Below the pieces are notes generated by a model. The model searched no databases. It was not told the origin of the DNA and worked only from the letters and a program-made list of their open reading frames with translations. The translations under genes were made by a program, and so were the position numbers. This document shows positions 3,706 to 63,068 of a stretch of 64,000 bases of DNA, piece after piece; the first letter of the stretch is position 1, and every line of letters begins with the position of its first letter. The DNA comes from Cercospora beticola (taxonomy: Eukaryota; Ascomycota; Dothideomycetes; Mycosphaerellales; Mycosphaerellaceae): assembly GCF_033473495.1 (NCBI RefSeq), contig NC_088939.1:4526001-4590000 (forward strand), in the 5' to 3' direction.

Positions 3706-3935
3706 TATTGAATTGTATTCTCGTAGGCACTCGTCGGATAGGTATAATATAGTAGAAGTAGAGATAATAAGTAGGAACTAACCGAGTTAATTATATTAGT
3801 TAGTTATAGGTTGCATCTTACTTCTAAGATAGGTATTAGCTAGATTATATAACCTAGTGTTACATAACCTATATTACCTAATCCTAATCCCTAAAGTGTC
3901 TCTTAGAATATCTAACTAGACTGCACTTTCTAACA
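3706..3935. repeat. right LTR of the TRIM-like element
   Basis: 230 bp copy ending in CTAACA, directly followed by the target duplication CGTAC. It is slightly less mutated than the left copy and keeps some TGC/CAC sequence. Confidence 0.85.
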
Positions 3936-4060
3936 CGTACTACTATTATAGTATAGCTAGCCTATTAAGGCGTAGCTAGCCTATTAAGGCGTATCGATAG
4001 GCATAAGACAGTTAAAGTACTATAGATCGTATAGTAGGTGCGGAGAGGTCGCTTACGGAT

Positions 4061-13887: not shown

Positions 13888-14164
13888 CCGGTCAGCAACT
13901 TCGCCTTACGCCGCTTCAAGGTGTTCAGTAATCTGAATATCGACATCGACCCGGACCCTCGGCGAACGCTTCGGCAGCTGCTAGTACGTGGCGCCACTAT
14001 GAATACATGCATACGATCCGCAATTGAGCAGCAAAATGCCGATTTCAAGTTGGACTATATAGTAGTGTCCGTTCTGGCCGAACGCAGCCCTACTGTATTC
14101 TGTTCCCACACGCAGTACCTACGAATCTTCAAGCTCCTTGTTCATCAGTTACTCACAGCAAAGA
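13888..14164 (+). promoter_or_regulatory. severed promoter and 5' UTR of the small secreted protein gene
   Basis: This 277 bp segment ends ...CACAGCAAAGA at the left edge of the copia element; the right edge resumes AAAGATG with the start codon of the secreted protein at 19910. Before insertion it was therefore the upstream region of that gene. A TATA-like CTATATAG lies about 108 bp before the junction. Confidence 0.65.
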
Positions 14165-14344
14165 TGTCGGTTTGGCCATGGCAGCCACCTCGCATGAACC
14201 GGAATCAGCCCTGACTGCCGGTTCTTCCGTTCCGGCAGTAGTATATAGAGCTAGCTCGTTCGCTACCTTCTATAGAATTAGACATCTTTATTATACCGAC
14301 TTTGACACTTGATCGAATACTCTCTATAGAGGAGCCTACCTATA
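14165..14344 (+). repeat. 5' LTR of the copia element
   Basis: 180 bp, starts TGTCGG. The outer half (14165-14235) is unmutated, while the inner end is changed (CCTATA where the 3' LTR has CCCACA). Confidence 0.92.
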
Positions 14345-15999: not shown

Positions 16000-16190
16000 T
16001 ATCGGATAGGTATAGTATAGTAGCTACCTCGTATAAACCGGCTTAAGCTCTAACTACTAGAATATAGATATTCCGTTCTAGTAGTAGTATATAGAGCTAG
16101 CTCGTTCGCTACCTTCTATAGAATTAGATATCTTTATTATACCGACTTTAATACTTAATCGAATACTCTCTATAGAGGAGCCTACCTATA
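16000..16190 (+). repeat. nested solo LTR of the same copia family
   Basis: 191 bp aligned end to end with the flanking LTRs (TATCGG start, CCTACCTATA end) with small indels. It is bounded by its own 5 bp duplication AGTAA (15995-15999 and 16191-16195). It is a second insertion of the same family that then lost its body by LTR-LTR recombination. Confidence 0.85.
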
Positions 16191-19100: not shown

Positions 19101-19725
19101 TTTAACTATAGTTTAATATACTAACTACTAAATCTTAATTCGATAGTATTATATATCTTTATTAATAGCTTATTTACGAATAATAAGGACTTCTCGTTAT
19201 AAATCGGTTACCTAATCGTTATTAGTACCGAATTAAACGCTACTAGCTTATTTACTATAACTAGTAATATCGTCTATTAGAGCTTAACTAAGAGTAAACA
19301 AGTAATACGCTTAGTTCTTATATTAGAGATATATACTATTAGCTATAGTATTAATATAGTATTTAGTATTAATACTACTCTATCTATAATCTTATAGCGA
19401 CTAGACAAACTAGCCTTACTATTAATCGTCTATACCGATTTACTCTCGCTTTATAAATATATAGTTAAGCTCGGTACTACTAAGGAGAAACGCTTAATAA
19501 TCGATATTATAGTACTAAGGCAGATATACGAGGCTAGAGAGGTTTATAAGGTACGCTAGATTAATAGTACTACTAACTCTACTAACTCTATAACTAAATT
19601 AATACCGAATAAGGCATTAACGACGCTTATTAATTAAGGAACGATATTATATAACGTCTAAGGATAGGTTAAAAGGTAAACCAACTAGGTTCTAAACGAT
19701 TTATACGAGAAAGAGAGATTGCTAG

Positions 19726-19905
19726 TATCGGTTTAGCTATAGCAGCCACCTCGCATAAACCGGAATTAGCCCTAACTGCCGGTTCTTCCGTTCCGGCAGT
19801 AGTATATAGAGCCAGCTCGTTCGCTACCTTCTATAGAATCAGACATCTTTATTATACCGACTTTGACACTTGATCGAATACCCTCTGCAGAGGAGCCTAC
19901 CCACA
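19726..19905 (+). repeat. 3' LTR of the copia element
   Basis: 180 bp, ends CCTACCCACA. Its inner start is mutated (TATCGG for TGTCGG) and its outer half is essentially unmutated, the mirror image of the 5' LTR. Confidence 0.92.
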
Positions 19906-19909
19906 AAAG

Positions 19910-20220
19910 ATGAAGAGTTTTACGCTATTTACATCCCTGTTCATGTTTGCTCTCAGCGTTGCTGCCGAACCTTTCTCGCCCAGAGGGCCAATGGACGCCA
20001 CTTTCGGGAAAAGACAGGACTGTCAAGCAAAATGTCCTGACGATGTGAGCATATCGATGACTCGTTCGAAAAGACTACAGACATTGATAGCGCATAGACT
20101 TTAGTCTGGTGTCATTGTGGAGGTGGTCTCGCTACTTGCATGGATGGCGTCACGCAGGTTTCCTGTGTACGTTGGATTTGGAACTACGGCAATTCGCAAT
20201 TGCGCTGACCTATGCAGTAA
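19910..20220 (+). CDS. small cysteine-rich secreted protein, Kex2 site, candidate effector
   Basis: The most coherent model has exons 19910-20044 and 20098-20166 plus the stop codon in 20218-20220, giving 68 aa. Intron 1 is GTGAGC...CATAG. Intron 2 has an ideal GTACGT donor and a GCTGAC branch before TATGCAG. If intron 2 is retained the protein gains a short tail and ends at about 20206. Residues 1-19 form a signal peptide. A dibasic KR at 34-35 suggests Kex2 cleavage, leaving a mature peptide of about 33 residues with six cysteines, including a W-C-H-C pair. Size, secretion and cysteine content fit fungal effectors or small secreted peptides; the function is unknown. The ATG begins with the last base of the copia target duplication, so the natural promoter now lies 5.7 kb upstream and expression is doubtful. 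Confidence 0.72.
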
Positions 20221-26126: not shown

Positions 26127-29100
26127 TTAGAGCTGCATACCAAAAGCTGGGAATCGAGGCGCAGATGTCTCATCGCAAGAGTACTGTACGAGGTATGGCG
26201 ACGCCTGGGTCTGGGGACCCAAGAACTCCGTGCCGTCCGGAGCGGTGACGAGGAGATGGAATTCGGCCTGCAACTGAGCGTTCGCGGCCATGACACGGAT
26301 TGGATAGTAGACGCCTGCTTCGAGTGTGATAGTAACACTGACCGGGGGTTCACCTGTTGTGCAAAGTCAGTTCAATTTCTGTCAATATGTATGAGAGCGA
26401 TTTACCTGGATAACCAGTGAAGCCCTGTGGTGGAGTTGCATAGACTTGCTCCAAGATGGCGTTCGTTCTTGTCCAGCCTGCATATGCGGTTGGACCAATC
26501 CACACGAGCACAATATCGTCAGCATTGTAAGATGTGAATGTGTAGTCTCCAGAGACGCCGGGGTAGATGTAAGCCTGGTGGTTGATTACCCAGTAGTCGC
26601 TAGGAATGACAACGCCGTTGTAAATTTCGAGTGTACCAGTGACACCGATCGGCTTGAAGGAGAATCCGCCAATGGAGGTGGTCACTCCTTGGTGTCTTGG
26701 TGTAATGGTCTTATAAGGCTGCAGTGTTTCGTTAGCGACTTTTCCGCATATTATGGAGCAAGTTACCACTTACCGCGGCTCTGAAGGTAGGGTAGCCTGG
26801 AGCATAGCCACCGCCAATGTTCGCGTAGTCAGCCCAAGCAAGACCTTGGTTGCCACACTGAGTCGGCGCAGGTATTGGTGGAACGACCGGATCGGTGGGA
26901 GGCGCAGGGATCGCGAATGGAGCACTCTGAGAAGTGCCGACGGACTTAGTGACAACTACGATTGGTGCTTGAACAGCTTCGGTCGCGGGGAGGACTTGAA
27001 GAATCGTGCCTTGCGTCATCGGATTACCTGTGACGATAGTGCTTGTAGAAGAGGCCAAACCGTAGCTGGTCGTTGTCACGTACAGTGGACCTTGTTGGAT
27101 CACGGTTCCGGAAGGTGAGCCAGGATCGTAGTTAATCGAAGATGTGGAGACAGGGAAATCGCCAAATGCAGTCGTTGTAGTGTACTGCACAGGGACATCG
27201 ACCTCGACAGTCCCGGTGGGCGCACCATCGACGTAGTTAGTGGTGGTGGCTTCGGCAGGGAAGTTTCCATACGAAGTGATGGTGGTGAGCTGAGGAGGCG
27301 AGTCGACCTCGACTGTGCCTGCAACTTGAGGTGGACCTGGGTTGAAGAGTGCAACGGTAGACGTGGCGACAGCAGCGAACTGGGTTCCAAACGATGTTAT
27401 AGTTTCGTATACCGCCCTCTCGGTGACAGAGACGGTTCCACTTGGCCCACCAGTGTAGATTGTCGTTGAAGCTGGCGTATCAATCAACGGATCATAGACA
27501 GTGGTAGTCGTGAAGACCACTGGTTGATCAACACGGACAGTACCTGGCACAATGGGGGGACCTGGGGTGAAAGACGCCAGAGTGGTTGTAGCTGGAGCTG
27601 CAAACTGCGTACCAAAGTTTGTGGTTGTCTCATATACCGCCCTGTCGGTCACTGAGACGGTTCCGCTTGGCCCACCAGTGTAGATTGTCGTCGAGGCTGG
27701 TGTGTCGATCAGAGGGTCATACACAGTGGTAGTTGTGAAGGTCACTGGTTGATCAACACGAACGGTACCTGGCGTCAAAGGTGGGCCGGCGTTGAACAAT
27801 GCGACAGTCGTCGTGGTCGGCTCGGCAAACTGTGTTCCGTAGTTGGTGGTTGTTTCATACACTGCCTTGTCGGTCACTGAAACGACTCCGCTGGGGCCTC
27901 CCGTGTACACTGTGGTGCTGATGGGGGTATCAACCAAAGGATCATAAATTGTAGTCGTCGAAAGAGTCACTGGCTCATTCAGCTGTACGAGTCCAGTGAC
28001 GATCGGTGGTCCAGGTTGGAACGTGGTGAGCGTTGTGGACGCTTCAGCAGTAAAGGACAGGTCGTAAGATGTGCTTGTCTCATAAACAGCTCTATCAGTG
28101 ACCGAGACGACTCCGCTTGGGCCTCCCGTGTAGACAGTGGTGCTGATAGGGACCTGGATGGCAGGGTCATAAATGGTTGTTGTCGCCAGGCTGACTGGCT
28201 CGTCAAGCTGGACGAGTCCGGTAACAATTGGTGGACCAGGTCGGAATGTGGTGAGTGTTGTTGAGGCCTCTGCAGTGAAAGAGAGGTCATACGATGTGCT
28301 TGTGACGTACACGGCACGGTCAGTGACCGAGACGATGCCGGTAGGGCCGCCGGTATAGACGGTAGTGCTGACAGGGTTCTGAATCGCAGGATCGTAAATG
28401 GTCGTCGTGGAAAGGGTGACTGGCTCGTCAAGCTGGACAACACCAGTGACTACAGGTGGCCCTGCTTGGAAGGTAGTCAAAGTGGCCGAAGCCTCTGCGG
28501 TGAAAGAAAGATCGTATGAGGTTGTCGTAGTGTAAATGGCACGATCCGTCACGAAAACTGTCCCTGAAGGTCCTCCAGTATAATCAGTGGTAGACACGGC
28601 ATCGACGATAGCCGGATCGTAAATGGTTGTCGTGGTTAGAGTAACTGGCTCGTCAAGTTGGACAAGACCAGTAACTACAGGTGGCCCTGGCTGGAAGGTA
28701 GTCAAGGTCGTTGAAGCCTCTGCGGTAAAAGAAAGATCGTACGAGGTCGTCGTAGTGTAAATGGCACGATCCGTAACAAAGACTGTGCCAAGAGGACCTC
28801 CGGTATAAACGGTAGAAGAAACTGCCTCTACGATAGCCGGATCGTAAATAGCAGAGGTAGTGAAGGAAACAGGCAGGTCCAGCTCCACAAGACCAGTTAC
28901 GACAGGTGGGCCAGGAGCAAATGATGTAAGAGTAGAGCTTGAGGGGGCTGCAATAGCGGTGTTGTAAACGGTGGTAGTCGAGTAAATAGCACGATCGGTT
29001 ATGAAAACTGTGCCCGAGGGACCACCCGTGTAAACCGTGCTAGAAACTGCAGATTCGATAGCAGGGTCATAAATCGCGGATGTGGTAAATGAGACTGGAA

Positions 29101-30448
29101 GGTCCAGCTCGACTAGGCCAGTCGTAAGAGGAGGTCCAGGCGTGAAAGATGTCAGTGTAGAACTAGAAGGGGCCGCAATGGCAGTGTTATAGATTGTAGT
29201 CGTCGAGTAGACAGCACGATCCCTGATTACGACCGTACCAGATGGACCTCCATTGTAAATAGTTGTCGTAATTGGCGATTGAATTTCCGGATCGTATACC
29301 GCAGATGTGGTGTACGACACGGGAAGATCAAGCTCTACCAGTCCAGTCGTGAGTGGCGGCCCCGGCGCGAAAGGCGTAATAGTGGTGCTAGTGGCGGCCG
29401 AAATAGCAGTGTTGTAGACAGTAGTCGTAGAGTAGACAGCTCGGTCAGTGACGATCACCGTTCCAGATGGGCCTCCATTATAGATAGTGGTTGTGACAGG
29501 TGACTGAATTTCTGGATCGTATACCGCAGATGTAGTGAACGATACTGGGAGATCGAGCTCCACCAAGCCAGTCGTGAGAGGCGGTCCGGGCGCGAAAGTC
29601 GTCAGAGTTGAAGTCGCGGAAATTGTGATCGCAGTGTTGTAGACAGTGGTGGTCTCATAAACTTCAGGTGCTCTGACGACAATCAATCCGGTAGGCTGGC
29701 CGGGGACATACTCAGTGGAAGTCGTACCCTCACGAAGCGACGGGTCGTAGATCGTTGTGGTTTCAAAATCCACTGGCTGGTCGATGATGACAGTCCCGGG
29801 ACCACCGGCAACACCAGGAACTGTGGTCGTGGCAGACGCTGTGATGGTAGGATCGTATTCGGTGATGGTAGTCAAGTTGGGAAGTGCAGTAGCGCCAGGC
29901 TGAGGAGTTGTAGTCGTAGGGCCAGTAGCACCGCCTGTTGGTGGCAGTTGAATGATGATAGTCCCAGGCTGGCCAGTGACAGTCTGAGTCACGGTAGTGG
30001 TAACAGGCGCAACGATTGTAGAGACAGTGACGGTTGTGGTGGTGTAGTTTCCTGGAAGAACGATGATGACTGTTCCTTGCTGGCGTCCGCTTGGTTGTGC
30101 GATGGTAGTCGTCACGGTTGTAGTCACAACGCTGGTAGCATTGAGGGTGAACGATGTCGAAGTCACGTAGTCGGTTTCGCAGGGTCCATAGCCGTTGCAG
30201 GTTGGCTGATCGTACGACGGTCCATATGCAGGAGGCGGGCTGGGTTGGTCGTATTTCGGAGGTGCTGGCTCAGCATATTCTGGCTGATCATATGCTGGAG
30301 GTGCTGGCTCGTTGTACGATGGATGATCGTACGTCGGAGGTGCAGGTTCGTTGTACGAAGGCTGATAGCGATCAGCTAGCTGTTTATACGAGACAGGCTT
30401 CGCGAGCACCAGGCTCTGCGAAGCCAAAAGGAGGAAAAACGAAAACAT
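26127..30448 (-). CDS. GPI-less repeat adhesin with C-terminal PA14/GLEYA-like domain
   Basis: Cell-surface or matrix adhesin of 1,404 aa. Exons on the minus strand are 30448-26774, 26718-26406 and 26353-26127; introns begin GTAAGT and GTAAAT and the frame is kept. I start at residue M62 of the longer open frame because it opens a clear signal peptide (FSFFLLLASQSLVLA). Next comes a Pro/Tyr-rich region with P-x-Y-x-x-PAPP units (residues ~30-85). Thr-rich degenerate repeats lead into about ten tandem 75-residue units. The C-terminal ~190 residues carry YWVINHQAYIYPGVSGDYTF, then ADDIVLVWIGPTAYAGW and LEAGVYYPIRV, matching PA14/GLEYA carbohydrate-binding lectin domains of fungal adhesins. No GPI-anchor tail is visible. 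Very high Thr/Ser content predicts heavy O-glycosylation. Confidence 0.9.
27320..29600 (-). repeat. ten tandem 225 bp repeats within the adhesin
   Basis: Each 75-aa unit contains PGPP, TGLVELD or TGLVQLDEPV, a YDP motif, YTGGPSGTV, VTDRAVY and a Thr-rich end. Three sequence groups follow each other (YDPEIQ, YDPAI, YDPLID variants), indicating stepwise intragenic duplication. Confidence 0.9.
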
Positions 30449-39691: not shown

Positions 39692-39719
39692 GATATACCA
39701 GCCGCATGCGGAATCCACG

Positions 39720-39871
39720 ACAATCGGTCTTGGCTAAATGGTCGAGTCGTAAGTCGCTCACGAGAAGTGCAGGCTTGGTGCAGCATCACAGCACCCGCTC
39801 AAGTCGCCCTCTGCGATGTTGCGTTGGGAGCCTGGGGCAAAGCACGGTCCATGAGACAAGGACGATTTTTT
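39720..39871 (+). ncRNA. array unit 1
   Basis: 5' arm ACAATCGGTCTTGG, A box TGGCTAAATGG, GTCGTAAGTCGC, 3' arm CAAGGACGATT and a T6 terminator. TATA-like TATACC lies 26 bp upstream. It has no clear -60 element. Confidence 0.7.
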
Positions 39872-40004
39872 GCTTTTGCGTCAGATTCTTTTCCTTTTGC
39901 CTTGGTATACAGACTCTGTTGCCTCTCTAACCCGCCCAAGTCTTCAATATCATTCAAGGCAGCCTCGAACAGGCATCATATTCAAACTGGCGGCCACCTC
40001 ACAT

Positions 40005-40171
40005 AACGATCGTTCTTGCCTTCATGGTTGAGCCGTAAGTCGCCATCGCCACTAAATCTGGACTGCGCTGCTCGCTTGTGGAACGACATGCTATCACAGA
40101 GATATTGACAACTTCTCTATACCAGTGCTTGTTCTTTGCTGCAGGTAGCTATGAGCCAAGAATGATTGTTC
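40005..40171 (+). ncRNA. array unit 2
   Basis: 5' arm AACGATCGTTCTTGC pairs with 3' arm CAAGAATGATTGTT. The TTCTT/AAGAA pair replaces CCTT/AAGG of other units, a compensatory change. The core is CCGTAAGTCGC. The T run at the end is interrupted; the first clean T4 is at about 40191. Confidence 0.6.
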
Positions 40172-40237
40172 TTGCTTCTTCTAGTCACCCTTTTCTTCTT
40201 TTCTTAGCGAACGCTCTTGCGGTTCAAGAGGGGCACA

Positions 40238-40393
40238 AACATGGACTCTCGCGTGGCTGTGCAACAGTCACCGGCAATTCGCCCAGCGAGCTTCGAGAAC
40301 CACATTTTGGGGGTCTTCTGCGTCGGGCGATCGATGAATGAAGCACAAATGCACCGTTGACTGTGGTTAGACTTTTGATCGGCGGACTGTTTG
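40238..40393 (+). ncRNA. array unit 3, degenerate
   Basis: Recognised mainly by position and by a 3' GGCGGACTGTTTGC resembling the usual GGGCGATTGTTTTGC. The 5' part is poorly conserved and lacks TAAGTCGC. Probably dead. Confidence 0.35.
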
Positions 40394-40551
40394 CACTTTT
40401 GCCCTTCGCTTGGCCCCTTTCCTCTGCCATTTTTTCGTCCCTAACGTAGCCACCGTGTATGCTTTCGCTCCAACCTGGTCCCCTAAGACCTTCTTTTGCA
40501 ATGCTTGCAACAACGGGCAGCATTATATGTCCTTCGAGATTCTAGCCATTC

Positions 40552-40703
40552 AACGATCGTCCTTGCAAGCGTGGTCCAGTCGTAAGTCGCTTAGGATTCG
40601 TGCTGTCTACAGGAAGTCTCGGGAAGCACAATACAGACCATCTGGTCTATGTGGCTTCGCGCTTGCGCTTTCCGCGTGCTGCGTAGCAAGGGCGATTGTT
40701 TTT
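40552..40703 (+). ncRNA. array unit 4
   Basis: -59 CTTTTGCA, -28 TATATG, 15 bp closing stem AACGATCGTCCTTGC with GCAAGGGCGATTGTT, GTCGTAAGTCGC core and a T5 terminator. The A box TGCAAGCGTGG is weak. Confidence 0.78.
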
Positions 40704-40833
40704 ATGTTTTGCCCGTCTTTTGTTCTTTTCTTGCAACGTCTGCCTCTGGAATTTTTGTCTCGCGCTACTCGACTCTTCTACTATGTATGACTTGGAAAGA
40801 TGGTTTACAAAGGACTCAAAAGTCACTCCGTTC

Positions 40834-40983
40834 AACGATCGTCCTTTGGCGAGATGGCTTAGTCGTAAGTCGCAGCATGCTGTGCTGTCTAAGATACTAG
40901 CATCGAGGGGTTAAGTTGCAGGCCATATAGACCTGTGCTCTTACCATATCCGGCCTGTGCTATGCGCTACGGGCGATTGTTTT
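40834..40983 (+). ncRNA. array unit 5
   Basis: 5' arm AACGATCGTCC, A box TGGCGAGATGG, GTCGTAAGTCGC, hairpin CGCAGCATGCTGTG, AGGCCATATAGACC element, 3' arm GGGCGATTGTT with T4. The TATA is weak (TTTACAAA near -30). Confidence 0.72.
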
Positions 40984-41101
40984 GTCCATCCCTTACCTCT
41001 TTCTTTTTCTTTTTGCTCCTTCTGCCCCAATGAGCATAAATCTCTTTTGGTAGAAAGATACGGAAGTCACCCCTAGAATACAAGCCTTCCTCCACCACCT
41101 T

Positions 41102-41262
41102 AGCATTCGTCCTCTGCATCGTGGCAACGTCTTAAATCGGATCAACAAGACTTTGTCTGCAAGAAAATTCCATAGTAGCGTGCTGCGAGGCATACTGCAA
41201 CTTGTAGCATCTCCGTCCTTCCTGCATGCTGTGTGCTAATGGCCAAATTTCGGGATTTTTTT
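41102..41262 (+). ncRNA. array unit 6, degenerate
   Basis: The 5' part ATTCGTCCTCTGCATCGTGG and CTTAAATCGG correspond to the usual arm, A box and core with changes. The 3' arm is eroded but ends in T7. A CTTTTGGT lies near -58. Function doubtful. Confidence 0.5.
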
Positions 41263-41363
41263 GTCTTTTGTCTCGCCCGTTCGCTCCGTACTTCGTGCCT
41301 GCTCTCCTGCCAGCCCTCGATTCCGAATCTACGCATTATATGTAGTTTGAAAACTTCCACAGC

Positions 41364-41511
41364 AACGATCGTCCTTGGTGTCGTGGCAAAGTCGTAAGTC
41401 GCTTTTTTCAGAAAGCGCTGTCTGTAATGCATGCGTGAGGCATATTAGATAAATCTGTTTTCTATCAAAGATGTCGCGGACGTGGTGCTACGGCTTAAGG
41501 GCGATTGTTTT
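41364..41511 (+). ncRNA. array unit 7
   Basis: -27 TATATG, AACGATCGTCCTTGG arm, GTCGTAAGTCGC core, hairpin CGCTTT...AAAGCG, 3' arm TTAAGGGCGATTGTTTT. The hairpin carries an internal T6 (about 41403-41408) that should stop Pol III early, so a full-length transcript may not be made. Confidence 0.65.
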
Positions 41512-41634
41512 GCCCTTTCCATCCACTTTTCTGCTCTGCAGATTGCCTTCTCTGCTCTTCTTGGACATGTATTCTTTTGCTGCCTTCTTACCCGTTAGAC
41601 AACCGTTATATAGCATTTCTACTATCGCTGCTTC

Positions 41635-41784
41635 AACAATCCGCCCTTGGCTAAGTGGTATAAGACATAAGTCGCATCCTTGGAATGCGCTGTCTGTTAC
41701 GACCCTTCGCTCCTGTAATGGTATGAGGCCGACAGACCCCCACCATTTCGGGTGAGTGGAACCCACACCAAGCGCGATTGTTTT
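41635..41784 (+). ncRNA. array unit 8
   Basis: -61 CTTTTGCT, -28 TATATA, 5' arm AACAATC with 3' arm GATTGTT (A-U replacing G-U), A box TGGCTAAGTGG, GACATAAGTCGC core, hairpin CGCATCC/GGAATGCG, AGGCCGACAGACC element and T4. Confidence 0.8.
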
Positions 41785-41908
41785 GCCTTTTGCACGTTCT
41801 TTTGCTTTCAGTCCATCATGGTTCATATCTTGCCAGCCTGTCTCTCCCTTTTGCTAGCCCTCATCTGCGAATCCAAGCTATATGTGCTCTGCTTTCCACG
41901 GTTTATAC

Positions 41909-42069
41909 AACGATCGTCCTTAGTCTAGTGGTACCAGACATAAGTCGCAACCAACAGAATGCGCTGTCAAAGAACGCAACAGCAAGGGAGTAGATCCAGG
42001 AATCAACTCGTTTCCCGGATCGCCTCGGCCCATGGGTTGCAAGCCACGCGCTCTGGACGATTGTTTTTT
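41909..42069 (+). ncRNA. array unit 9
   Basis: -61 CTTTTGCT, -30 TATATG, 11 bp stem AACGATCGTCC with GGACGATTGTT, A box TAGTCTAGTGG, GACATAAGTCGC core, hairpin CGCA...TGCG and T6. A B-box-like GGGTTGCAAGCC lies before the 3' arm. Confidence 0.82.
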
Positions 42070-42191
42070 GCCTCTCACACGCCTACTTTTCCCTTATTTT
42101 CTCACGAACTTATCGTTCGACCATCTGCTCGTTTTGCTAGCCTTTGGTTCCTAGCCCAAGCATTATATGCCATTCCTGTCGCACCTCTTCT

Positions 42192-42350
42192 AACGATCAT
42201 CCTTGGTCTAGTGGTAACAGATATAAGTCGCGAACATCACGATCGCGCTGTCTTCAGACCAGCAACGAGTTCTCTTCCAAGGCTAGCTAGTAGACCTTCG
42301 TCGATAGAAAAACTGCCTGCATCGTGCTACGGCCCAAGGTTGATTGTTTT
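42192..42350 (+). ncRNA. array unit 10
   Basis: -61 GTTTTGCT, -28 TATATG, 5' arm AACGATCATCCTTGG with CCAAGGTTGATTGTT (A-U replaces the usual G-C), A box TGGTCTAGTGG, GATATAAGTCGC core, hairpin CGCGA/TCGCG and T4. Confidence 0.82.
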
Positions 42351-42471
42351 GCCTTATCCGAGAACTTTTGCTTTTCAGGTCTGCATCATAAGTCCTCATG
42401 GCATCTCCTTTCGCTTTTGCTAATCTCACCCTGATGTTCACGTATATCGATGCCTTGAAAGCATCGATGTT

Positions 42472-42625
42472 AACGATCGTCCTTGGTCTAGTGGTAAAGA
42501 CATAAGTCGCACCTTCGTGCTGCGTTGTCCGAAAGCAGTACTTAATGCCGGCGCTATCAGGCCGGTTAGACCTGTGACCTGGCATTAGAGTAGCTGCTCT
42601 GCCCCTTCCTAAGGGCGATTGTTTT
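42472..42625 (+). ncRNA. array unit 11
   Basis: -58 CTTTTGCT, -29 TATATC, consensus 5' arm and A box, GACATAAGTCGC core, hairpin CGCA/TGCG. A long second stem pairs TAATGCC with GGCATTA and AGCAG with CTGCT around AGGCCGGTTAGACC. T4 terminator. Confidence 0.85.
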
Positions 42626-42749
42626 GCCTCGTCTTTGCACTTTTTGTCCGAATCCTTCATCGCCAAATTTTGAACCATATCTCTTCCTTTTGCTGATTAT
42701 CCGGCCGTTGGTTTGAAGCCGTATACACCAGTTGAAAAGCATGCGTTGT

Positions 42750-42905
42750 AACAATCGTCCTTGGTCTAGTGGGTGAAGACATAAGTCGCTTTCCACAATG
42801 CGTTGTCTAAAAGCGGTACTCACTGGCAGCCGTACTAGGCCGATCAGACACATCTGACCGGTCGCGGTGCGGGAATGATAGACCACTTCTAAGGGCGATT
42901 GTTTT
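42750..42905 (+). ncRNA. array unit 12
   Basis: -63 CTTTTGCT, -28 TATACA, AACAATCGTCCTTGG arm with CTAAGGGCGATTGTT, A box TGGTCTAGTGG, GACATAAGTCGC core, AGGCCGATCAGAC element and T4. Confidence 0.83.
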
Positions 42906-43027
42906 GCCCCCTTTCATCCTCTTTCCCTTCACATCCACAATCGCCATCCTTACAGCATACCCTCCCCTTTTGCTCCCCCCACCCCTTAGAATGAGGCCAT
43001 ATGTACCAGTTACCGAGCGTGGTTGTC

Positions 43028-43180
43028 AACAATCGTCCTTGGTCTAGTGGTAAAAGACATAAGTCGCAGTTTCGAGATTGCGCTGTTCGTAAATACATAC
43101 ATGGAGCGGACCGACGCGAGGCCGAAGACCTCCGGGACCTGTTGCGTAGGTCGTAACCACACACCAAGGGCGGTCGTTTT
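43028..43180 (+). ncRNA. array unit 13
   Basis: -61 CTTTTGCT, -29 ATATGT, AACAATCGTCCTTGG arm with CCAAGGGCGGTCGTT, A box TGGTCTAGTGG, GACATAAGTCGC core, hairpin CGCAG/TTGCG, AGGCCGAAGACC element, B-box-like GGTCGTAACC and T4. Last unit of the array. Confidence 0.83.
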
Positions 43181-43565
43181 GCTACTTTTCCTCGTTGGCT
43201 TTTCAAATACCGTTTCGTAGTCTTTTGCATTTTGATACCACCTTTTGCCAGACTGTGCAATTTTGAGTGGTGGGCTGAGAGGTACGATATCGCCCATGTC
43301 AGTGATCAGACGGAGGGTATGGGGCTACAAGACAGGTAATCATCCATTGTACAGTTATCAGCATGTAGCAGTTCGCAAGCGCTCAGCAGGTATCTCTCAT
43401 TCGTTCGATCAAGCAACTCAGTTCGCCTCCAGCAAGACGCCATCATACACTACCGCGGGTCGCATAGCTCCTCGTCCCTACCTTCATTGCAGAGTTCCTT
43501 CAAAATGTCCCCACATTTGAAGTCGATGGATACGGAAGAAAGAGATGTTCCGAAGGCTGGACTTC
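43181..43565. other. intergenic after the array
   Basis: No further unit is recognisable after 43180. The segment also contains the 3' region of the convergent HMG-box gene. Confidence 0.4.
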
Positions 43566-44969
43566 CTAAGCCGCAGCTGCTTCGCTCTTCCTCTTCTTGC
43601 GCTTCTTCTTCTCGGTTCCACTGCCAGCTTCCGCTTGACTCGACTCAGGCACTTGTAGCTGTGCAGCAGAAGCAGCTTGCTCAGCCAGCACATCATCCTT
43701 CTTACTCGACTTGCCACGCTTCTTCTTCTCGCCACCCTCAGCAGTGCCCGGCGTCTCGACCGCAGCTGCAGCCTTGCGCTTCTTCGAGCTCGCTTGAGGT
43801 TGCGATGGAGGTAATGCGAGGGAGCTGGAGGGTGTCATTTGAGCGATGGGAGCACTCGAGGTCAGTTGCGGGTCGATAGCCATGTTGGCGGCAGGAGTGG
43901 CATCGGCAGCGGCCTTGACTTTCTTTGGTCCAGCTTTGGGTGTCTTAGCCTTCGGTGGCGGAGGAGTCGGCAGCTTGGCTGGGACATCCTCATGCTCGTC
44001 GGACTCCTCACTGCTAGAGCTGTCGTCGGATGAGGAATCGTCGTCGCTCTCATCTTCTGCAGCGGCGACCACATCCGCAGGCAGAGCAGAGGGAGATTCC
44101 ACCTCTGCATCTCCATCTTCAACATCCTCAGCCTTGCCACCTGCAGCTTTGTATGCCTTGGTAGCCTCCTCGTACGCGCTCAGCTCGCTCTGATACGCAG
44201 CGTGATATGGCTTGCGCTGAGCTTCAGTCATGGTCCTCCATCTTTCAGTGGCGATCTTGCTGATGTCGCCAGCCTTGGTGCCATCGCTGGGCGGGTTTGT
44301 AGCAACCTCTTTCGCGATGAATGGGCGCACCTCCTTCAAGTAGCGGAAGTAGGCGGTGAGTGGTCGCTTGGGCGCATTGGGGTCGCGTTGCTTGTATGGG
44401 CGCTTCTCTCGCTTCTTGGGATCGACCAGATTGCCGTTCGCATCGATGGGCGCGGCGGCGAGCTGGATCAAGCCATTCTGAATAGCTTGCTCTGCGACTT
44501 GAGCAGCGCCTGCGACGCCTTGAAAGGGCAGAAGCAGTTGGCTGATGTCGAAGTTGCCGGCGCCTTGCAGCACGACGTCGGTGTGGGCGATGTAGGCCTT
44601 GATGGCGGTGTCGATGGAGCTGCTCAGGCCGATGTACGCGCTGGTGAGCTGCGACGCGTTAGTTCATCGTTGGAGGTGAAGTTGCATCGGCTGTTGCTAT
44701 GCGCCAGTCGCGTCGAGGCTGCCTTTGTTGTCGCGTCGCAAAGTTCGGCGTAGGTGAAGTTGGCCGTGATGCGACGAGGGAGTGTGAAGACATACAGCAT
44801 TGCGCGTCTGGATGAAGCGCTCCGTGTCGACCGACACCTGCAGCGTTGGAGGATAGGCCATCGCGTTGCCGTTGCTGTTTTGATTTGTGTGGTTTGGGCT
44901 GTTATTCGCGGCCCACGAGACGAGCTGGTGAAAGTGGTCGGGATATTGGTGGCCGTTGGTGGAAGCCAT
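43566..44969 (-). CDS. HMG-box protein
   Basis: 418 aa in two exons on the minus strand (44969-44796 and 44648-43566). The 147 bp intron has a GTATGT donor and a CTAAC branch before CGCAG. A single HMG box at about residues 149-225 (PNAPKRPLTAYFRYLKEVRP, then ERWRTMTEAQRKPYHAAYQ) indicates a DNA-bending chromatin or nucleolar protein. It is preceded by a basic KKREKRPYKQRD patch. The rest is acidic and Ser-rich (DESDDDSSSDDSSSSEES), followed by Lys/Pro/Ala-rich low complexity ending in a KKKRKKRKSE nuclear localisation signal. It belongs to a conserved fungal group with no firm functional assignment. Divergent from urease. Confidence 0.9.
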
Positions 44970-46228: not shown

Positions 46229-48083
46229 ATGCAATTGGCACCGAAGGAGGTAAGTACTCTCCCCATGCATCCCAATGGCTCTCACAACAAACTTCCAACC
46301 CTCCAAACACCCATTGACACTTTGCGCATAGATCGACAAACTCCTCATAACCCAAACCGGCTTCCTCGCCCAACGCCGTCTCGCCCGGGGCGTCCGTCTA
46401 AACCACACCGAAGCCCTCTCCCTCATCGCCTGCGTCCTCCACGAACTCATCCGCGATGGAACCCACTCTGTCAGCGACCTCATGTCCCTGGGTACAACCC
46501 TCCTCGGCCGCCGCCACGTCCTCCCCTCCGTGCCCCACACCCTCAAAGAATTAATGGTCGAAGGCACATTCCGGAATGGAACCTACCTCGTCACCGTCCA
46601 CGATCCTATCGCGACCGATGAAGGGAATTTAGAAAGGGCGTTGTATGGATCACTATTGCCTGTGATGGATAAGGGGAGGGAAAATGAGGTTTTTTCGTGG
46701 CCGCCTGTGGAAGGGTTGGAGGTTTGGGGGGAGAAGGAAATGCCGGGGGCTGTTGTTGCTGTGAGAGGGAAAGAGGGGAGGATAGCATTGAATGAAGGGA
46801 GGAAGAGGTTGAAGTTGAAGGTCACGAGTAAAGGTGATAGACCAATTCAAGTGGGGAGTCATTATCATTTTGTGGAAACGAATCCGAAATTGGAATTTGA
46901 TCGGTTGAAGGCTAGAGGGATGAGATTGGATATTCCGGCGGGGACGTCGGTGAGGTTTGAGCCCGGGGAGAGTAGGACTGTTACGCTGGTGGAGATTGCG
47001 GGGAATAAGGTGATACGAGGAGGGAATGGGTTGGCGAGTGGTGGGGTGCATGCTGTGAGTGATGAGGGGTTGTTGCAGAGGTTGAAGGAGGGTGGGTTTT
47101 TGCATGTGGAGCAGCCGAGGGCGGATGCGAGGTTGTTGGAGGGGTGTACGATGGATCGGGAGAGTTATATTGCTATGTTTGGACCTACGACGGGAGATCG
47201 AGTGAGGCTTGGAGCGACGGATCTGTGGATCTCAGTGGAGAAGGACTTGACAGTCTACGGAGACGAGTGTTCTTTTGGAGGCGGCAAGACGATTCGTGAC
47301 GGCATGGGACAGGCTTCGGGAAGAGCTGACAAGGACTGCTTGGATACCGTCGTTACCAATGCGCTCATTGTGGACTACACGGGCATCTACAAGGCGGATA
47401 TTGGCATCAAAGATGGCATCATTGTTGGCATTGGCAAAGCTGGAAATCCGGATGTGATGGAAGGCGTCGATCCCAACCTCATTGTTGGCGCTGCGACAGA
47501 TGTCATTGCTGGCGAACACAAGATCGTCACATACGGAGGCTACGATTCGCATATTCACTTCATCTGCCCTCAGCAAGCATACGAAGCAGTGGCGAGCGGC
47601 ATCACGACTTTCCTGGGAGGAGGTACAGGACCAAGCACCAGCACAAATGCTACGACTTGCACGCCAAGTGTCAATATGATGAAGTGGATGCTTCAAGCAT
47701 GCGATGACTTACCGATCAATGTTGGAATCACGGGCAAAGGTAACGACGCAGATCCCGCAGGTCTGATAGATCAAGTTGAAGCTGGTGCATGCGGACTGAA
47801 ACTGCACGAAGACTGGGGCACAACACCTGCCACAATCGACACATGTCTCTCCGTTGCCGATGAACACGATATCCAAGTCCTCATCCACACCGACACCCTG
47901 AACGAATCCGGCTTTGTCGAAACCACAGTCGCAGCTTTCAAAGACCGCACAATTCACACCTACCACACCGAAGGTGCCGGCGGCGGCCACGCCCCAGACA
48001 TCATCTCCGTAGTCGAACACCCTCACGTCCTCCCTTCATCCACAAACCCCACCCGCCCCTACACCGGCAACACCCTCGACGAA

Positions 48084-48116
<33 letters not shown>

Positions 48117-48917
48117 TCCCGCAACATCCCCGAAGACGTCGCCTTCGCCGAATCGCGCATCCGCGCCGAAACCATCGCAGCCGAAGACGTCCTCCACGAC
48201 ATCGGCGCAATCAGCATGATGTCCTCCGACTCCCAAGCCATGGGCCGCTGCGGCGAAGTCATCCTCCGAACCTGGAACACAGCCCACAAAAACAAAGTCC
48301 AACGCGGTTTCCTCCCCGAAGACGCCGGAACAGACGTCGACAATTTCCGTGTCAAACGTTATATTTCGAAATATACCATCAACCCGGCCATCGCGCAAGG
48401 GATGTCCCATCTTCTCGGTTCTATTGAACCAGGGAAACTCGCGGATCTTGTCCTCTGGGATCCTGCGAATTTTGGTGTGAAACCTGCGCAAGTTGTGAAA
48501 GGGGGGATGATTGTTTATTCGCAAATGGGTGATCCGAATGCTAGTATTCCGACTGTGGAACCTGTGATTATGCGGCCCATGTTTGGGGCGATGGTTCCTG
48601 GTGCGAGGGGGATTGCGTGGGTGAGTGGGAGGAGTATTGAGAGTGGGAAAGTTGCATCTTATGGATTGAAGAAGAGGGTGGAGGCTGTGAAGAATTGTAG
48701 GAGTGTGAAGAAGGGGGATATGAAATTTAATGGGAAGATGCCGAGGATGAAGGTTGATGCGGAGAGATATGTGAGTTCTTGATCTCCAGATTTTCTTCGC
48801 TATGGTGTTTGTTGTTGTTGCTGACTTGTGTGATAGATTGTCGAAGCGGATGGCGAGGAGATGAAGGCTGAGCCGGCGGATACGCTGCCTTTGAGTCAAG
48901 GGTATTTTATCTTCTGA
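46229..48917 (+). CDS. ure1: urease
   Basis: Hydrolyses urea to ammonia and carbamate with a two-nickel centre in the cytosol. 846 aa in three exons: a 7-codon first exon 46229-46249, then 46332-48770 and 48837-48917. The fused fungal/plant order is visible: gamma domain ([17 protein letters not shown]), beta domain ([11 protein letters not shown]), alpha domain from about residue 270. Metal and active-site residues are present: His414 and His416 in SHIHF, Lys497 in GLKLHEDWG, His in [24 protein letters not shown], and [22 protein letters not shown]. The C-terminus is YFIF, near the usual urease end. Third-position base choice swings from C-rich to G-rich and back along the gene. The accessory proteins UreD/F/G are not in the window. 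Confidence 0.97.
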
Positions 48918-52427: not shown

Positions 52428-53507
52428 CTGGGATGGAGGAAGGAGGGGAAGGGAGGGAAGTTGTGAGACATGAAGCCGTTGGTGGAACCATGGAGGACTG
52501 GAGTAATGCGATTTACTTGTAAGTGGGACTTGGCATGTACTACTCAACAGACAGAAGACTGCCTAGCTGCCGACAGCCAAATGGAAACTGAGTAACACCC
52601 ACACATTGTCCTCTGTTCTCGCGACCTTGGCTGCACGGCACGTTTCTTGAGACAAAGTGCACTCAAATGCTCCGGGCAGACAGAGTGCGCAGCATTGGCC
52701 TTAGGTAACTGTTCTGCTTTCCGGCGGGAGACTGCGTCCGATTGTTTTCCAGAACATACTGACTGCAAATAGGGCTAATCCATGTCCAAGTTACAGATAT
52801 GAAAAGCTTCATGCTGCCCAAGCTGCTCACTTGACTTTGCTGCAGGCTGTTCCGATGGCACGAACGTGGGCTCACAGTTGGTGATGTTCTGTTGAAAGAG
52901 CAAAGCAAAGAAGTCGACAAACTTTGATCGTCTCTTTGGAGCGAACTAGGACCGAGCGATTCTGTTTGCTGTAACGTATCAGAGCGATTTTTGAGAAGCA
53001 GGCATTGGATTGCACACTGCACGGATCTTCTCTTTCCGCCTGCGATGAGCACTTCGCATCATTGATTCGCTTACACAGACAAGCGCGACATACGACATGG
53101 ATCCATGAAAGCAACTTTGGACTCACAGCCTACATTTCGGGCAGTGCTGGCTTGCGGTTTGCAGTTGGATGAGATAGTAACCCGTCTAGACCTGGGCGCA
53201 GCCGGCCTCACGATAAAGATACCTTTGAGGGTGGAGTTCACCCACTTGTACCCACTCTTCTACGGAATCTTCGCGTCCATCCATCGTGCAGTAGGCAAAA
53301 TGTCCAACGCAGGATCCCTGCAGTCCATCACACTGAGTGACCGGGGCTGAGTGCATGATGCGAGCGATTAAGTGCATGCTGTGCCACTGCTGTGCGTTGT
53401 GGGCGCTTAGAACAGCTATCTCCACACAGCTCAGCTCGTTGCAAACATCCAAAACATCGAAACTCGCAACATTCTGTGGGACGACACTCGTGCAAAAGAC
53501 ACCAGAT
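52428..53507. other. intergenic
   Basis: About 1.1 kb between the GFA gene and the NLR-like gene. Scattered short ORFs, none recognised. Confidence 0.4.
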
Positions 53508-60400: not shown

Positions 60401-63068
60401 TCAAGCATCCTCGTCAGCGTCCTGCTGAGTAGTAAACTTCCTCCTCTTGCCACCTTCAGCAAGCTTCTGCAACGCAACCTTGTTGACTTGCGCGCCAACC
60501 TTCTGCTGCATCTTTTCAATCTCTGCTTCGGCATCTTCCGGATCTTCAGCAGCAAAGTCCAGCACGAGCCTTCGGCCCAGCAAGTGAGTATCTTTCAGAG
60601 CATCCATTGCACTTTGTGCTTCCTTGACAGTAGTGAAGTCTGCAAACGCGAAACCTCGGGCTCCGCGGTCCATCTTCTTCGGCACACGAACACTTCGCAG
60701 TTGACCGTACTCGCCAAATAGGGCTCGAACATCCTTCTTCGTTGCTTCGAATGGCAAGTTCTTGATGATGACTTTAGTCGTAGCTGCCTTCTTAGCCTTA
60801 TCAGCCTTCTTGCGCTTCTCCGCGGCATCTTCACCTTTGTGAGAAGCGCGGATCTGCAGCTTGTGACCTTCAAGACTGTAGCCGTCCATAGCACGCAGTG
60901 CATCCTGAGCCTGTTTGGCACTGTTGAACTCGAGAAAGCCAAAGCCCATACTAAGTTCACCTCGTTTAGGATCGACCCTGGTCTTGACCCGAGCATTGAG
61001 GAACCCATCGAGAGCCTTGAATGTTTGGGTAAGGACGTCCGTCGTGGTGCTAAAATTCAAATTGCGCACAAACAACGTCGCCGAACCTGCAGTGTCAGGC
61101 ACGACAGTGTCCTTCAGGTCAGACGTCGAGAGCTTGCTAACACCTTCAGCAGTTGCGGATGTGGCGGGATCATCGATCGGCTTGGCAGAGAAGACATCCT
61201 TGGGTGCCTTCTCCAAGAACAGCACGGACGACTTCACTCTTCGATACGCCAATGTCCCAAATGCGGCCTTGCACTGCGCAGGGTTGCTGTACTCCACAAT
61301 CGCTATTGTGCCAGCAGGTGGCATGAGGAATCGCTTGACGTCTCCCTGCTCGTCAAAGAGTCGCTGCAGCTCATCTCGGCTGCAGTCCGCTGGAATGTTC
61401 TTGACCAAAATGGCCGTGTCCCCACGCGCGCTTTTCTTGAACGCGTCTAGATCAACGCCTTGTTGTCGAAAGTAAGACTTTGTCTCTTGAATAATGTGTG
61501 TCTCAGCATGAGCTTGCTTGACGGCAGCGTCGCTCGAAGTTGGATCGAGAACTTCGGACTTCGCAATACCGAGTCGATTGGCAACACTGGAGATGACAGC
61601 ATCTTGGTTCATGTACAAAGCGTTCCAGTTGAAGACTGTGTTCGCAGCTTCTCGTTTCCGCTTGATCTCATGCTGCTTCTTCAGTGGAAGTTTGGCGAGG
61701 TCGAAGTCATCAAGCTTCTTCTCTCGTTTTGCAGCGCCAGGAAGGATGTGCATCAGTCTACCTTGGAAAATGCGCCCATCGAGCTCAATCAAAGCTCTTT
61801 CGGCAGAGTCCGGATCTGTGTACTGAACATAAGCAAAGCCCTTCGCTGCACCGGACGTCTTGTCTAGCGGAATGTGTATCTATGCAACAGAATTAGCCAC
61901 GTAGTCTTGCATGAGCATTTTGAAAACTGTGCGTAGTGTGAGATTATCAGAAACGACGAAGCATCTACTAAAATACGGTCCTCTTTTGGTCTAAGCATGT
62001 GCCGAAGCATAAGCTGTCCCTATCAGGAGATCATCAGGAAACGGGTGAGATGAAATGAAATTCACTGACCTGCTCAAGATTGCCAAATGGTTCGAATTGA
62101 CCCTCGAGGTCTTCGTACTTGACATCGTATGGCAGGTTGCGCACGAATAGGCGCATCGTGGTGCGCACCTGCTTGATGTCTTGGTCCTCGTGTTCGTCAT
62201 CGTCTTCCGCAGGCGGTGTGGGTATTGAGGATTCCGGCTCCGCGGGTGTCTTCTCTCGTTGGCCGGGAGCATCATCCTGCTGTGGAGACTCGGCTTCCGA
62301 ATCAGATTCAGCTGGCTTCGTGGGCACAGCTTCTTCTTCGTCATCCTCCAGCAGGCCAAGCAGGCGGCTTGTCCGAGAACGAGCCCATTCCGCATCAGAG
62401 ACTGCCGGTATATCATTGCTTCCATCTTGCCCAAGATCTGTCGCAGCATCGCCTGAAGGAGCTTCTGCCTCGACCACTTCCACCGCCGCATCTTGCATCG
62501 GTGTGTCCTGGATGGGCTTCGTCTCTGATCTTGTTCGTTTCGTTTTCTTTGGCACCTGCTCATACTCGTCATCGCTCTCCCCAGCCTCTACGACTGCAGC
62601 CTCCTCGTCTTGCTCTGCTCCTGCGACCATCGCCTGGTTCTCGAGCGCCTTCTTGTCGGACTTCGATTTGTACGAGTCGAGGAACTCTTTCAATTTGGGG
62701 TCGTTTTCGGTGGCGTCATCCTTGGGTTTGCTCTCGCTGTCGCGCTTGCGCTTCAGCTTGTTGCTCTCGGTAGCCGTCTGCTGGTTAGCACCTGTGACCT
62801 TAGCTGTAGGATGACGTCTGGTAGCAAGGCTCTCGTCAATGGGCTTGGCCATCTCTACGCCGATACGAGACATGCGAATGAAAGTCTTGTTGAAGTACTT
62901 GACCGCCTGTTCGGCATCCTCGCTGGTTTTGTAGCCAACATAGCCAATGCGACGATTGGGAAAGATCTTTGCATCTGTGATCTGCCCTTTTTGCCCAAAG
63001 TGCTTTCGAAATTGGGCTTCGTCAAAGGTGGGCGGGAGACCCTTCACGAAGATGCGTGACGAAGCCAT
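60401..63068 (-). CDS. mrd1: Mrd1, multiple RNA-binding domain protein
   Basis: A nucleolar factor of the 90S pre-ribosome needed for early 18S rRNA processing. 825 aa in two exons on the minus strand (63068-62070 and 61879-60401). The 190 bp intron begins GTCAGT and splits RRM2. Five RRMs are visible. RRM1 at the N-terminus opens SSRIFVKGLPPTFDEAQFRK. RRM2 is at ~305-380 (RLFVRNLPYDVKYEDL) and RRM3 at ~488-560 (TAILVKNIPADCSRDEL). RRM4 is at ~600-680 (ATLFVRNLNFSTTTDVL) and RRM5 at ~702-777 (KVIIKNLPFEATKKDVRALF). An acidic, low-complexity linker lies between RRM1 and RRM2. Arrangement and length match fungal Mrd1. Divergent from the LC8 gene. Confidence 0.95.

Follow-up and report, generated by a model that had tools for sequence, protein, structure and literature searches.

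A tandem array of repeated units

The window, a 64,000-nucleotide stretch of the Cercospora beticola genome, contains a tandem array of similar units on its + strand at 39719-43182. We modeled the units with two covariance models: R1, whose training set was the window's 11 clear units only, and R2, a retrained model that raised the unit count. The original prediction described about 13 tandem copies. The array itself is real, but by R1 and R2 only 11 units are clear; one more (U06) is decayed and one slot (U03) is empty. Adjacent units have a start-to-start spacing of 271-286, with larger gaps of 547 at the empty slot and 530 at the decayed one. The window has 11 occurrences of TAAGTCGC, every one on the + strand and within the array, compared to a mean of 2.05 and a maximum of 6 in 100 shuffles. 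The R1 scores listed below for the 11 clear units are so by construction, because all 11 were in the R1 training set. P1 denotes the closing stem.

39719..39874, + strand: U01, P1 weakened (R1 82.2 bits; TATA-like element 39694-39697)
40005..40174, + strand: U02 (R1 92.5 bits; ATAT 39978-39981)
40175..40551, + strand: expected slot of U03, no unit detectable with R1 or R2 (spacing 547)
40552..40704, + strand: U04 (R1 98.3 bits; TATA 40524-40527)
40834..40985, + strand: U05 (R1 107 bits; without TATA/ATAT at the usual place)
~41102..41262, + strand: U06, decayed (placed by alignment; without TATA-like element)
41364..41513, + strand: U07 (R1 112.1 bits; TATA 41337-41340)
41635..41786, + strand: U08 (R1 101.9 bits; TATA 41607-41610)
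41909..42069, + strand: U09 (R1 114.7 bits; TATA 41879-41882)
42192..42352, + strand: U10 (R1 112.5 bits; TATA 42164-42167)
42472..42627, + strand: U11 (R1 117.5 bits; TATA 42443-42446)
42750..42907, + strand: U12 (R1 117.2 bits; TATA 42722-42725)
43028..43182, + strand: U13 (R1 127.4 bits; ATAT 42999-43002)

U06 scored 5.9 bits with R1 (41163-41264) and 14.0 bits, E 0.048, with R2 (41107-41245). A TATA-like element lies 25-30 bp upstream of 10 of the 12 window units. All units share a layout: a 16-bp closing stem (P1), an A-box-like segment, a bulged hairpin (P3), a long arm (P4) and a T run. U13 serves as an example, with the family-wide evidence for each part in brackets.

43028..43043, + strand: P1 closing stem, 5' strand (P1 pairing across the family)
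43040..43050, + strand: A-box-like TGGTCTAGTGG (A-box pattern test)
43055..43088, + strand: P3 hairpin, consisting of a lower stem, UAA bulge, one pair, U bulge and upper stem
43089..43162, + strand: variable arm P4 (stability test; sequence saturated)
43163..43180, + strand: P1 3' strand and T4 terminator-like run (pairing and T-run count)

The shared blocks do follow one another in a fixed order, as had been proposed, with two corrections. The hairpin that follows TAAGTCGC holds up (own vs. swapped arms, p 0.0033 in 11 units), and we found an additional lower stem. The block AGGCC..AGACC, proposed as common to the copies, is present in just 4 of the 11 units and almost in a fifth. The TATA-like element, the absence of a convincing B box and the ~100 units elsewhere in the genome had been missed.

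Related units across the genome

We located further loci in the same genome by patterns from the window units' own arms and A-box region. Five patterns, read forward vs. backwards, matched 36 vs. 1, 26 vs. 0, 17 vs. 0, 11 vs. 0 and 112 vs. 28 times; weak patterns gave 43 vs. 34, 128 vs. 26 and 8 vs. 3. R1 matched at these other loci with a best E of 4.8e-13, then 1.5e-10, 2.9e-10 and others (rough calibration); the matches are not wholly independent, because the loci were found with window-derived patterns. With R2, the family comprises at least 113 units at at least 22 loci, on 8 of the 10 contigs of the genome, with a median unit length of ~157 nt. Loci hold 1-11 copies, 18 of the 22 being arrays of 2-11 units, and within every locus all units have a single orientation. 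L038 and L063, whose nearest units are ~3.6 kb apart in opposite orientation, were counted as two loci. In a bacterial genome collection there were five pattern matches, none credible by covariance model (best E 0.16).

The count of 113 excludes antisense matches of counted units, which reach 32.2 bits (E 3.5e-6) with R1 from the stem alone. It also excludes U06 (window 41107, 14.0 bits), window 52691 (14.6 bits), L057:2835 (20.3 bits), L050:5129 (14.8), L067:2333 (16.9), L074:1-107 (28.9, cut by the end), L074:870-896 and L076:455 (cut). L073:1217 (14.5 bits) was retained though no stronger than some excluded rows. Some units are decayed, for example U06 and L055:1914; the latter, whose core is absent, was also retained but does not enter the 92-unit P3 test. 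For the tests of P1, P3, A box, B box and P4 stability, we took the 93 units that were in the set when L073-L076 had yet to join; 92 of these have a core.

Structure and covariation of the predicted RNA

Sequence conservation sits in P1 and in the core of P3, where conserved UAA and U bulges, both on one strand, lie around UAAGUCG. Both helices pair better with their own arms than with arms swapped between loci, the best register being taken per unit and controls being treated identically: P3 formed 9.68 of 11 pairs vs. 7.90 swapped (92 units), and P1, ungapped over 16 positions, formed 13.78 of 16 vs. 12.19 (93 units). The P1 pair table covers the 87 of 93 units with at least 12 pairs, and 104 of the 113 units have P1 in their predicted fold. 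Inside the window alone, P1 covariation was not significant (p 0.10). In a sample of 35 of the 113 units, hand-chosen from 16 of the 22 loci with the structure taken from one alignment row, closing stem and hairpin showed strong covariation, and compensatory changes outscored the controls, both shuffled and slid, on four measures out of five. There were 119 cells with changes in both partners vs. 46.6 ± 6.1 after shuffling, and the covariation score was 0.435 vs. 0.224 ± 0.012 after shuffling and no more than 0.133 after sliding. On the fifth measure, pairs with a change on both sides, we counted 15 vs. 13.2, and 79 of 500 shuffles were as high.

Could the arms instead be terminal inverted repeats of a MITE-like DNA element? 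The complementary ends of 15-16 nt and the many copies would suit one. However, P1 mismatches are mostly of the G.U type on one strand: with the register set by Watson-Crick pairs only, 107 of the 113 units gave 283 G.U vs. 57 A.C, and 160 vs. 53 without positions 4 and 9, as expected for an RNA of this strand. The TATA element stands outside the arms at a fixed distance, P3 covaries inside them, and units share one orientation per locus. We find a DNA element of this kind hardly credible.

P4 changes freely in sequence while its pairing is kept. Its stability exceeds that of shuffles (Stouffer -8.1 in 92 units) compared to -1.4 for downstream spacers. Inside the window alone the effect is modest (-2.07) and equal for the reverse complement (-2.07). 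An AGGC-type apical hairpin occurs in P4 of 18 of 92 units vs. 3.1 shuffled and is thus a feature of a subset. Diversifying selection on P4 is unsupported, P4 and spacers being about equally saturated. A further pairing, P2, joins the A-box strand with the segment just before the 3' arm; its own score of 10.98 exceeds the between-locus swap (10.15, p 7e-5), but the within-locus swap (10.59) comes near it, so we regard P2 as weak and do not claim it. Two other candidates were rejected: a tRNA-like D stem from GTC..GAC, whose GAC strand is part of the covarying P3 lower stem, and a 5' splice-site decoy (GTAAGT), since, of 92 units, 55 have G and 34 have A just before the core, which itself varies too.

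A further question is whether the units are precursors from which Dicer cuts microRNA-like small RNAs (milRNAs) out of P1 or P4. In Neurospora, another filamentous ascomycete, the major milRNAs are Pol III-dependent and their loci, like the units, carry TATA-like elements and T runs (PMC3547838). Moreover, the P4 arm reaches at least 18 bp in 21 of 113 units vs. 4 of 113 when each was shuffled once. In the remaining 92 units, though, the arm is shorter than 18 bp, and what is conserved in sequence is P1 and the P3 core rather than one long duplex. As far as the available text of that report goes, it describes no shared structural frame of this kind for the Neurospora loci. That the units are milRNA precursors appears rather improbable. 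We are nearly certain that they are real structured RNA genes.

Promoter-like elements, known families and a possible scaffold role

TATA or ATAT begins between -32 and -22 in 72 of the 113 units (it is missing there from 41) vs. 2-7 of 113 in five other windows, and this element stands outside the covariance model. The A-box pattern is present in 61 of 93 units, with 32 failing it, vs. 75 of 1860 shuffled (4%). A T run of at least 4 ends 107 of the 113 units, a count partly by construction, because the T run was included in the search model. B-box matches (at least 8 of 10) exceed chance slightly, if at all: 30 of 92 units (32.6%) vs. 25.9% of shuffles, and 21 of 93 vs. 22.9% downstream of the units. 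A TATA near -28, an A box near +13 and a T run of at least 4 hold fixed positions, as in Pol III genes of the TATA plus A-box type, and the units are very probably Pol III genes.

No known family was matched in the loci scanned. Rfam, searched at gathering and relaxed thresholds, returned no family that reached its gathering score over a unit; the scan covered the window and 17 of the other 21 loci (L052, L056, L059 and L062 were left out), and with relaxed thresholds no E-value was better than 2.2. ARAGORN (bacterial code) detected neither tRNA nor tmRNA genes in the window or in 17 loci (L073-L076 were left out); this and the lack of a clear B box speak against a tRNA or tRNA-derived SINE. 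Searches of the open-access literature listed no paper whose title or abstract describes a family of this kind. The searches described above did not identify the units as fragments of a known satellite or transposon. Covariation, the fixed TATA, A box and T run, and the lack of an Rfam match favor an unrecognized Pol III noncoding RNA family, as originally predicted, here with 113 units.

A Pol III repeat need not serve its host. The family could be a selfish tandem SINE-like element or satellite, its structure kept for transcription and binding of the surviving copies, and its 22 loci of 1-11 copies, its decayed copies and the saturation of P4 and spacers are all compatible with this. Covarying P1 and P3, on the other hand, are not required by promoter elements alone. 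There are no near-identical recent copies within loci (the closest pairs have identities of 0.71 in spacers and 0.72 in P4), arrays rather than single copies make up 18 of the 22 loci, and there is no clear B box. We consider a selfish repeat unlikely.

Vault RNAs are Pol III-type, with paired ends and an A box, and their genes carry an internal B box. The original prediction likened the architecture to Y and vault RNAs, and as a structural comparison this is fair: the units are Pol III-type and clustered, with paired ends, a U tail, a bulged helix and a variable inner domain. Kinship is another matter. The Ro60 domain (TROVE, PF05731) had no match in this genome at E 0.001 exon by exon, in a search where 1 of 14 control genomes matched, and the units, which have no clear B box and, in the loci scanned, no Rfam match, differ in this from vault RNAs. 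Major vault protein (PF11978) had no match in the genome, but also none in any control genome. Y RNAs and nematode stem-bulge RNAs share with the units the Pol III type, paired ends, retained U tail, bulged helix and variable inner domain (PMC4726728). These RNAs are ~100 nt, however, and as described there the Ro60 site combines a bulged C on one strand of the lower stem with a 3-nt bulge on the other, whereas the units have UAA and U bulges on one strand of the inner hairpin P3 and an ungapped P1. That they are true fungal Y or vault RNAs is very improbable. According to the same 2015 review, neither Y RNAs nor stem-bulge RNAs had yet been found in fungi (PMC4726728), and the family thus bears on an open question.

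The copies, their structure and the elements resembling promoter and terminator are demonstrated here; from these features we infer the polymerase, transcript ends, La binding, protein docking and function as follows. Every unit would be a separate Pol III-type gene, whose transcript starts near +1 under the direction of the TATA-like element ~28 bp upstream and the A box at ~+13 and ends at a run of at least 4 T. Both ends would then pair as the 16-bp P1, closing at the first nucleotide and leaving a short U tail, so that no end processing would be needed and binding by La protein would be expected. P1 may be the source of stability, the bulged P3 helix the docking site of a common protein, and P4 a copy-specific specificity element or spacer. 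The RNA would work as an RNP scaffold, like Y RNAs or dictyostelid Class I RNAs. We put the probability of this whole explanation, a family at at least 22 loci of Pol III-type genes for RNP scaffold RNAs of ~157 nt, at about 0.72; within it, the scaffold role is possible at a little short of even odds. More tentatively, the units may represent a new eukaryotic small-RNA class with over 100 diversified genes per genome, in whose RNP the P1 and P3 frame binds the common protein and P4 is a separately evolving specificity module. By that reading, the arrays would be a repertoire rather than redundant copies.

With more than 100 genes of one structured RNA in a 36-Mb genome, the family would in our judgement rank among the largest fungal noncoding RNA families after tRNA and rRNA. 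Its tandem arrays amount to a natural experiment in the growth and diversification of Pol III RNA families, and its structure is defined enough for direct tests of transcripts and bound protein.

The family is most likely a class of Pol III-type scaffold RNAs not described before, neither Y RNA nor dictyostelid Class I by the features tested. Fifteen fungal structured RNA motifs reported by Li and Breaker also came from a comparative structure search in fungi; judged by the section headings, they include no tandem, free-standing family of Pol III genes, and the words 'tandem' and 'Dothideomycetes' are absent from the main text (PMC5640933). We set these motifs apart by the headings and the Rfam scan, and Class I RNAs by their description and the same scan. 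Class I RNAs have a median of ~60 nt, a 6-bp end stem and a mostly unpaired 11-nt motif (PMC7919456), while the Cercospora units, from a different kingdom, have ~157 nt, a 16-bp stem and a bulged hairpin motif. In both, many clustered genes include few identical copies, a covarying stem joins the ends, and a short motif is conserved while the remainder varies (PMC7919456). Class I RNAs, as here, were discovered by a covariance model together with an upstream element (PMC7919456).

Organization of the array and its relatives across the genome

The original prediction placed about 13 tandem units, or candidate RNA genes, at 39692-43180. Eleven are clear, all on the + strand within 39719-43182; one further slot holds a decayed copy (U06) and one is empty. 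Two features of this region are listed here:

about 41102-41262, decayed unit in slot U06
43566-44663, - strand, HMG-box gene neighboring the array

The protein of the HMG-box neighbor is 98% identical to a Cercospora kikuchii protein (over 99% of the query) and 87% identical to a C. zeina protein; on this one neighboring protein the genome is assigned to Cercospora (Mycosphaerellaceae, Dothideomycetes). Starts of adjacent units lie 271-286 bp apart, with gaps of 547 bp over the empty slot and 530 bp over the decayed one. The short conserved blocks claimed for the units are present: the 5' and 3' arms recur together with TAAGTCGC, of which the 64-kb window has 11 copies, every one on the + strand and within the array (in 100 shuffles, 2.05 on average and 6 at most). 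The AGGCC..AGACC block that had been ascribed to the units was found in 4 of the 11 and nearly in a fifth.

We searched the genome holding the window (36.07 Mb, 10 contigs) with patterns drawn from the unit arms and the A-box region, using each pattern read backwards as the control. The 13-nt 5' arm pattern, with one mismatch allowed, gave 112 matches vs 28 backwards, a 3'-end pattern 36 vs 1, two 5'-part patterns 17 vs 0 and 26 vs 0, and a second-subfamily pattern 11 vs 0. Others discriminated less: 128 vs 26 for another 3'-end pattern, 43 vs 34, and 8 vs 3 for TAAGTCGC..GYGYTGTC, all eight forward matches being in the window's own array.

A covariance model trained on the 11 window units only, R1, was then applied to the fetched loci. 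It matched units outside its training with E-values, rough as for all covariance-model matches here, such as 4.8e-13 (locus L061), 1.5e-10 (L037), 2.9e-10 (L051), and 6.6e-10 (L064). The independence of this test is partial: the same arms had supplied the patterns used to pick the loci, and the stem is enough by itself to give a score, as in antisense R1 matches to counted units of up to 32.2 bits (E 3.5e-6). A wider model retrained on 53 units, R2, yielded an inventory of at least 113 units, spread over 22 loci on contigs C1, C2, C3, C5, C6, C7, C8, and C9, a lower bound since many pattern places lie outside the fetched loci. Each locus holds 1 to 11 units in a single orientation. At E 0.5, R2 had no match in seven arm-pattern loci (L039, L040, L042, L043, L044, L058, and L060).

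Four additional 3'-end pattern matches (C2:4928271, C2:3428710, C4:2232692, and C4:2044003) may mark further units. In the window, a short, weak R2 match at 52691-52750 (+; 14.6 bits, E 0.034) with a GTCCGATTGTTTT end is possibly a relic. Fourteen of the 22 loci lie no more than 0.65 Mb from a contig end, a cut-off set after the values were seen; a subtelomeric bias is possible. Four loci (L038, L055, L056, and L063; C5:43-146 kb), two per strand, span about 100 kb near a contig end.

Pairing of the unit ends and the bulged hairpin

The units have a median length of 157 nt. In the closing stem, P1, a unit's first 16 nt pair with its last part, and 104 of the 113 units form this stem in their predicted fold of lowest energy. 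Arms of the same unit pair better (13.78/16) than arms combined with those of other loci (12.19) or shuffled (9.89; 93 units, p 4e-20). Whole loci have altered both strands jointly: CCTTGG/CCAAGG in the window, CCCAGGCAC/GTGCCTGGG at L054, and CATCTGCAC/GTGCGGATG at L074. With the register set by Watson-Crick pairs only, the remaining P1 pairs comprise 283 G.U vs 57 A.C (107 of 113 units), or 160 vs 53 without two positions that are predominantly G.U; in a count of 246 vs 48, G.U had helped the choice of register. Such an excess is expected of an RNA from this strand, not of a DNA inverted repeat. A reading of the units as MITEs is disfavored by this G.U bias, by a TATA element outside the arms, and by covariation in the interior of the units.

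The internal hairpin, P3, is built from a lower stem of 5 bp and an upper stem starting with C-G, separated by a UAA bulge, one base pair, and a U bulge in that order. The lone pair between the bulges is G-C in 72 of 92 units, A-U in 8, and G-U in 7, so a compensated form exists. Pairing within the same unit averaged 9.68/11 vs 7.90 for swapped and 7.62 for shuffled strands (92 units), and at least 10 pairs form in 54/92 units vs 6.0% of swapped and 2.1% of shuffled combinations. Among the window units alone, covariation was significant in P3 (p 0.0033) and not significant in P1 (p 0.10).

For joint covariation of P1 and P3 we aligned 35 units of the 113, drawn from 16 loci. There were 119 cells with both sides changed vs 46.6 ± 6.1 in shuffles, a control that kinship of the sequences alone can exceed, structure not being required. 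Paired cells made up 87.6% vs 75.5%. The covariation score was 0.435 vs 0.224 ± 0.012 shuffled and at most 0.133 for slid partners, over which the structure is favored, chiefly on paired cells, by having been taken from one alignment row. Pairs showing at least one double change numbered 15 vs 13.2, which does not stand out from the control (79 of 500 shuffles were as high).

Promoter-like signals and the pattern of conservation

In 72 of the 113 units a TATA or ATAT has its start between -32 and -22; in five other windows of 11 nt the count is 2 to 7 per 113. Lying outside the search models, this element is the most independent signal. Among window units, 10/12 carry it at -25 to -30. An A-box pattern occurs in 61/93 units vs 75/1860 shuffles, and 107 of 113 units end in a run of at least four T, a count favored by the model, which itself ends in T. 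B boxes within units (30/92 vs 25.9% of shuffles) were at most slightly over chance, and those in the 80 nt downstream (21/93 vs 22.9%) at chance level. From the TATA distance, the place of the A box, and the start of P1, transcription is predicted to start close to the first A of P1.

Identity within loci is 0.92 in the core, the conserved motif of P3 (shuffled 0.57), 0.81 in the 5' arm (0.55), and 0.58 in the long variable arm P4 (0.54), compared with 0.58-0.59 in spacers (0.56-0.58); saturation is at about the same level in P4 and the spacers. The frame, promoter-like elements, and terminator-like run have thus been held while the sequence of P4 drifted. P4 nonetheless keeps its folding ability (mean z -0.84, Stouffer -8.1, 92 units; downstream spacers, -1.4).

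Each unit is most likely a separate Pol III gene, whose transcript would fold shut on itself and retain a U tail, with the bulged helix open to binding by a common protein and P4 forming the variable portion. The strongest alternatives are a selfish Pol III repeat and a set of milRNA precursors. In Neurospora, loci of milRNAs can belong to Pol III and bear TATA-like elements and T runs (PMC3547838), and P4 arms of at least 18 bp occur in 21/113 units vs 4/113 shuffled.

Comparison with known RNAs and the genomic setting

That the family would be an unrecognized one is supported by comparison with Rfam: across the window and 17 of the other 21 loci, no known family scored at or above its gathering threshold over a unit. 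ARAGORN found no tRNA in the window or in 17 loci. An exon-wise search of the genome found no TROVE domain (Ro60), with 1 of 14 control genomes positive; in a profile search for the major vault protein, neither this genome nor any control genome gave a match, which makes that search uninformative. Among the open-access papers searched we found no description of such an RNA family, which hints weakly at novelty.

As outlined in PMC4726728, Y RNAs share the proposed working principle: a self-closed Pol III transcript with a U tail, a bulged protein-binding helix, and a variable part. Dictyostelid Class I RNAs, as described in PMC7919456, have clustered genes, are rarely identical, and have a covarying stem joining their ends, features in which the units resemble them. 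On the features tested, the units belong to neither group; the likeness of working stands.

Elsewhere in the window, the blocks 1-4000 and 14000-20000 are AT-rich (GC 0.32-0.35, the remainder being mostly near 0.5) and by GC content look like RIP-affected regions. A tandem repeat at 27408-29602 has a period of 225 bp (73-85% matches); as this length is divisible by three, the repeat perhaps encodes a repetitive protein. An Rfam match to 5_ureB_sRNA at 47294-47584 (-) is antisense to a long open frame at 46332-48782 (+), read by eye as urease, and probably reflects likeness of the coding gene, not an sRNA. The C/D-box snoRNA Afu_335 was matched in Rfam at 61945-62041 (-; 65.7 bits).
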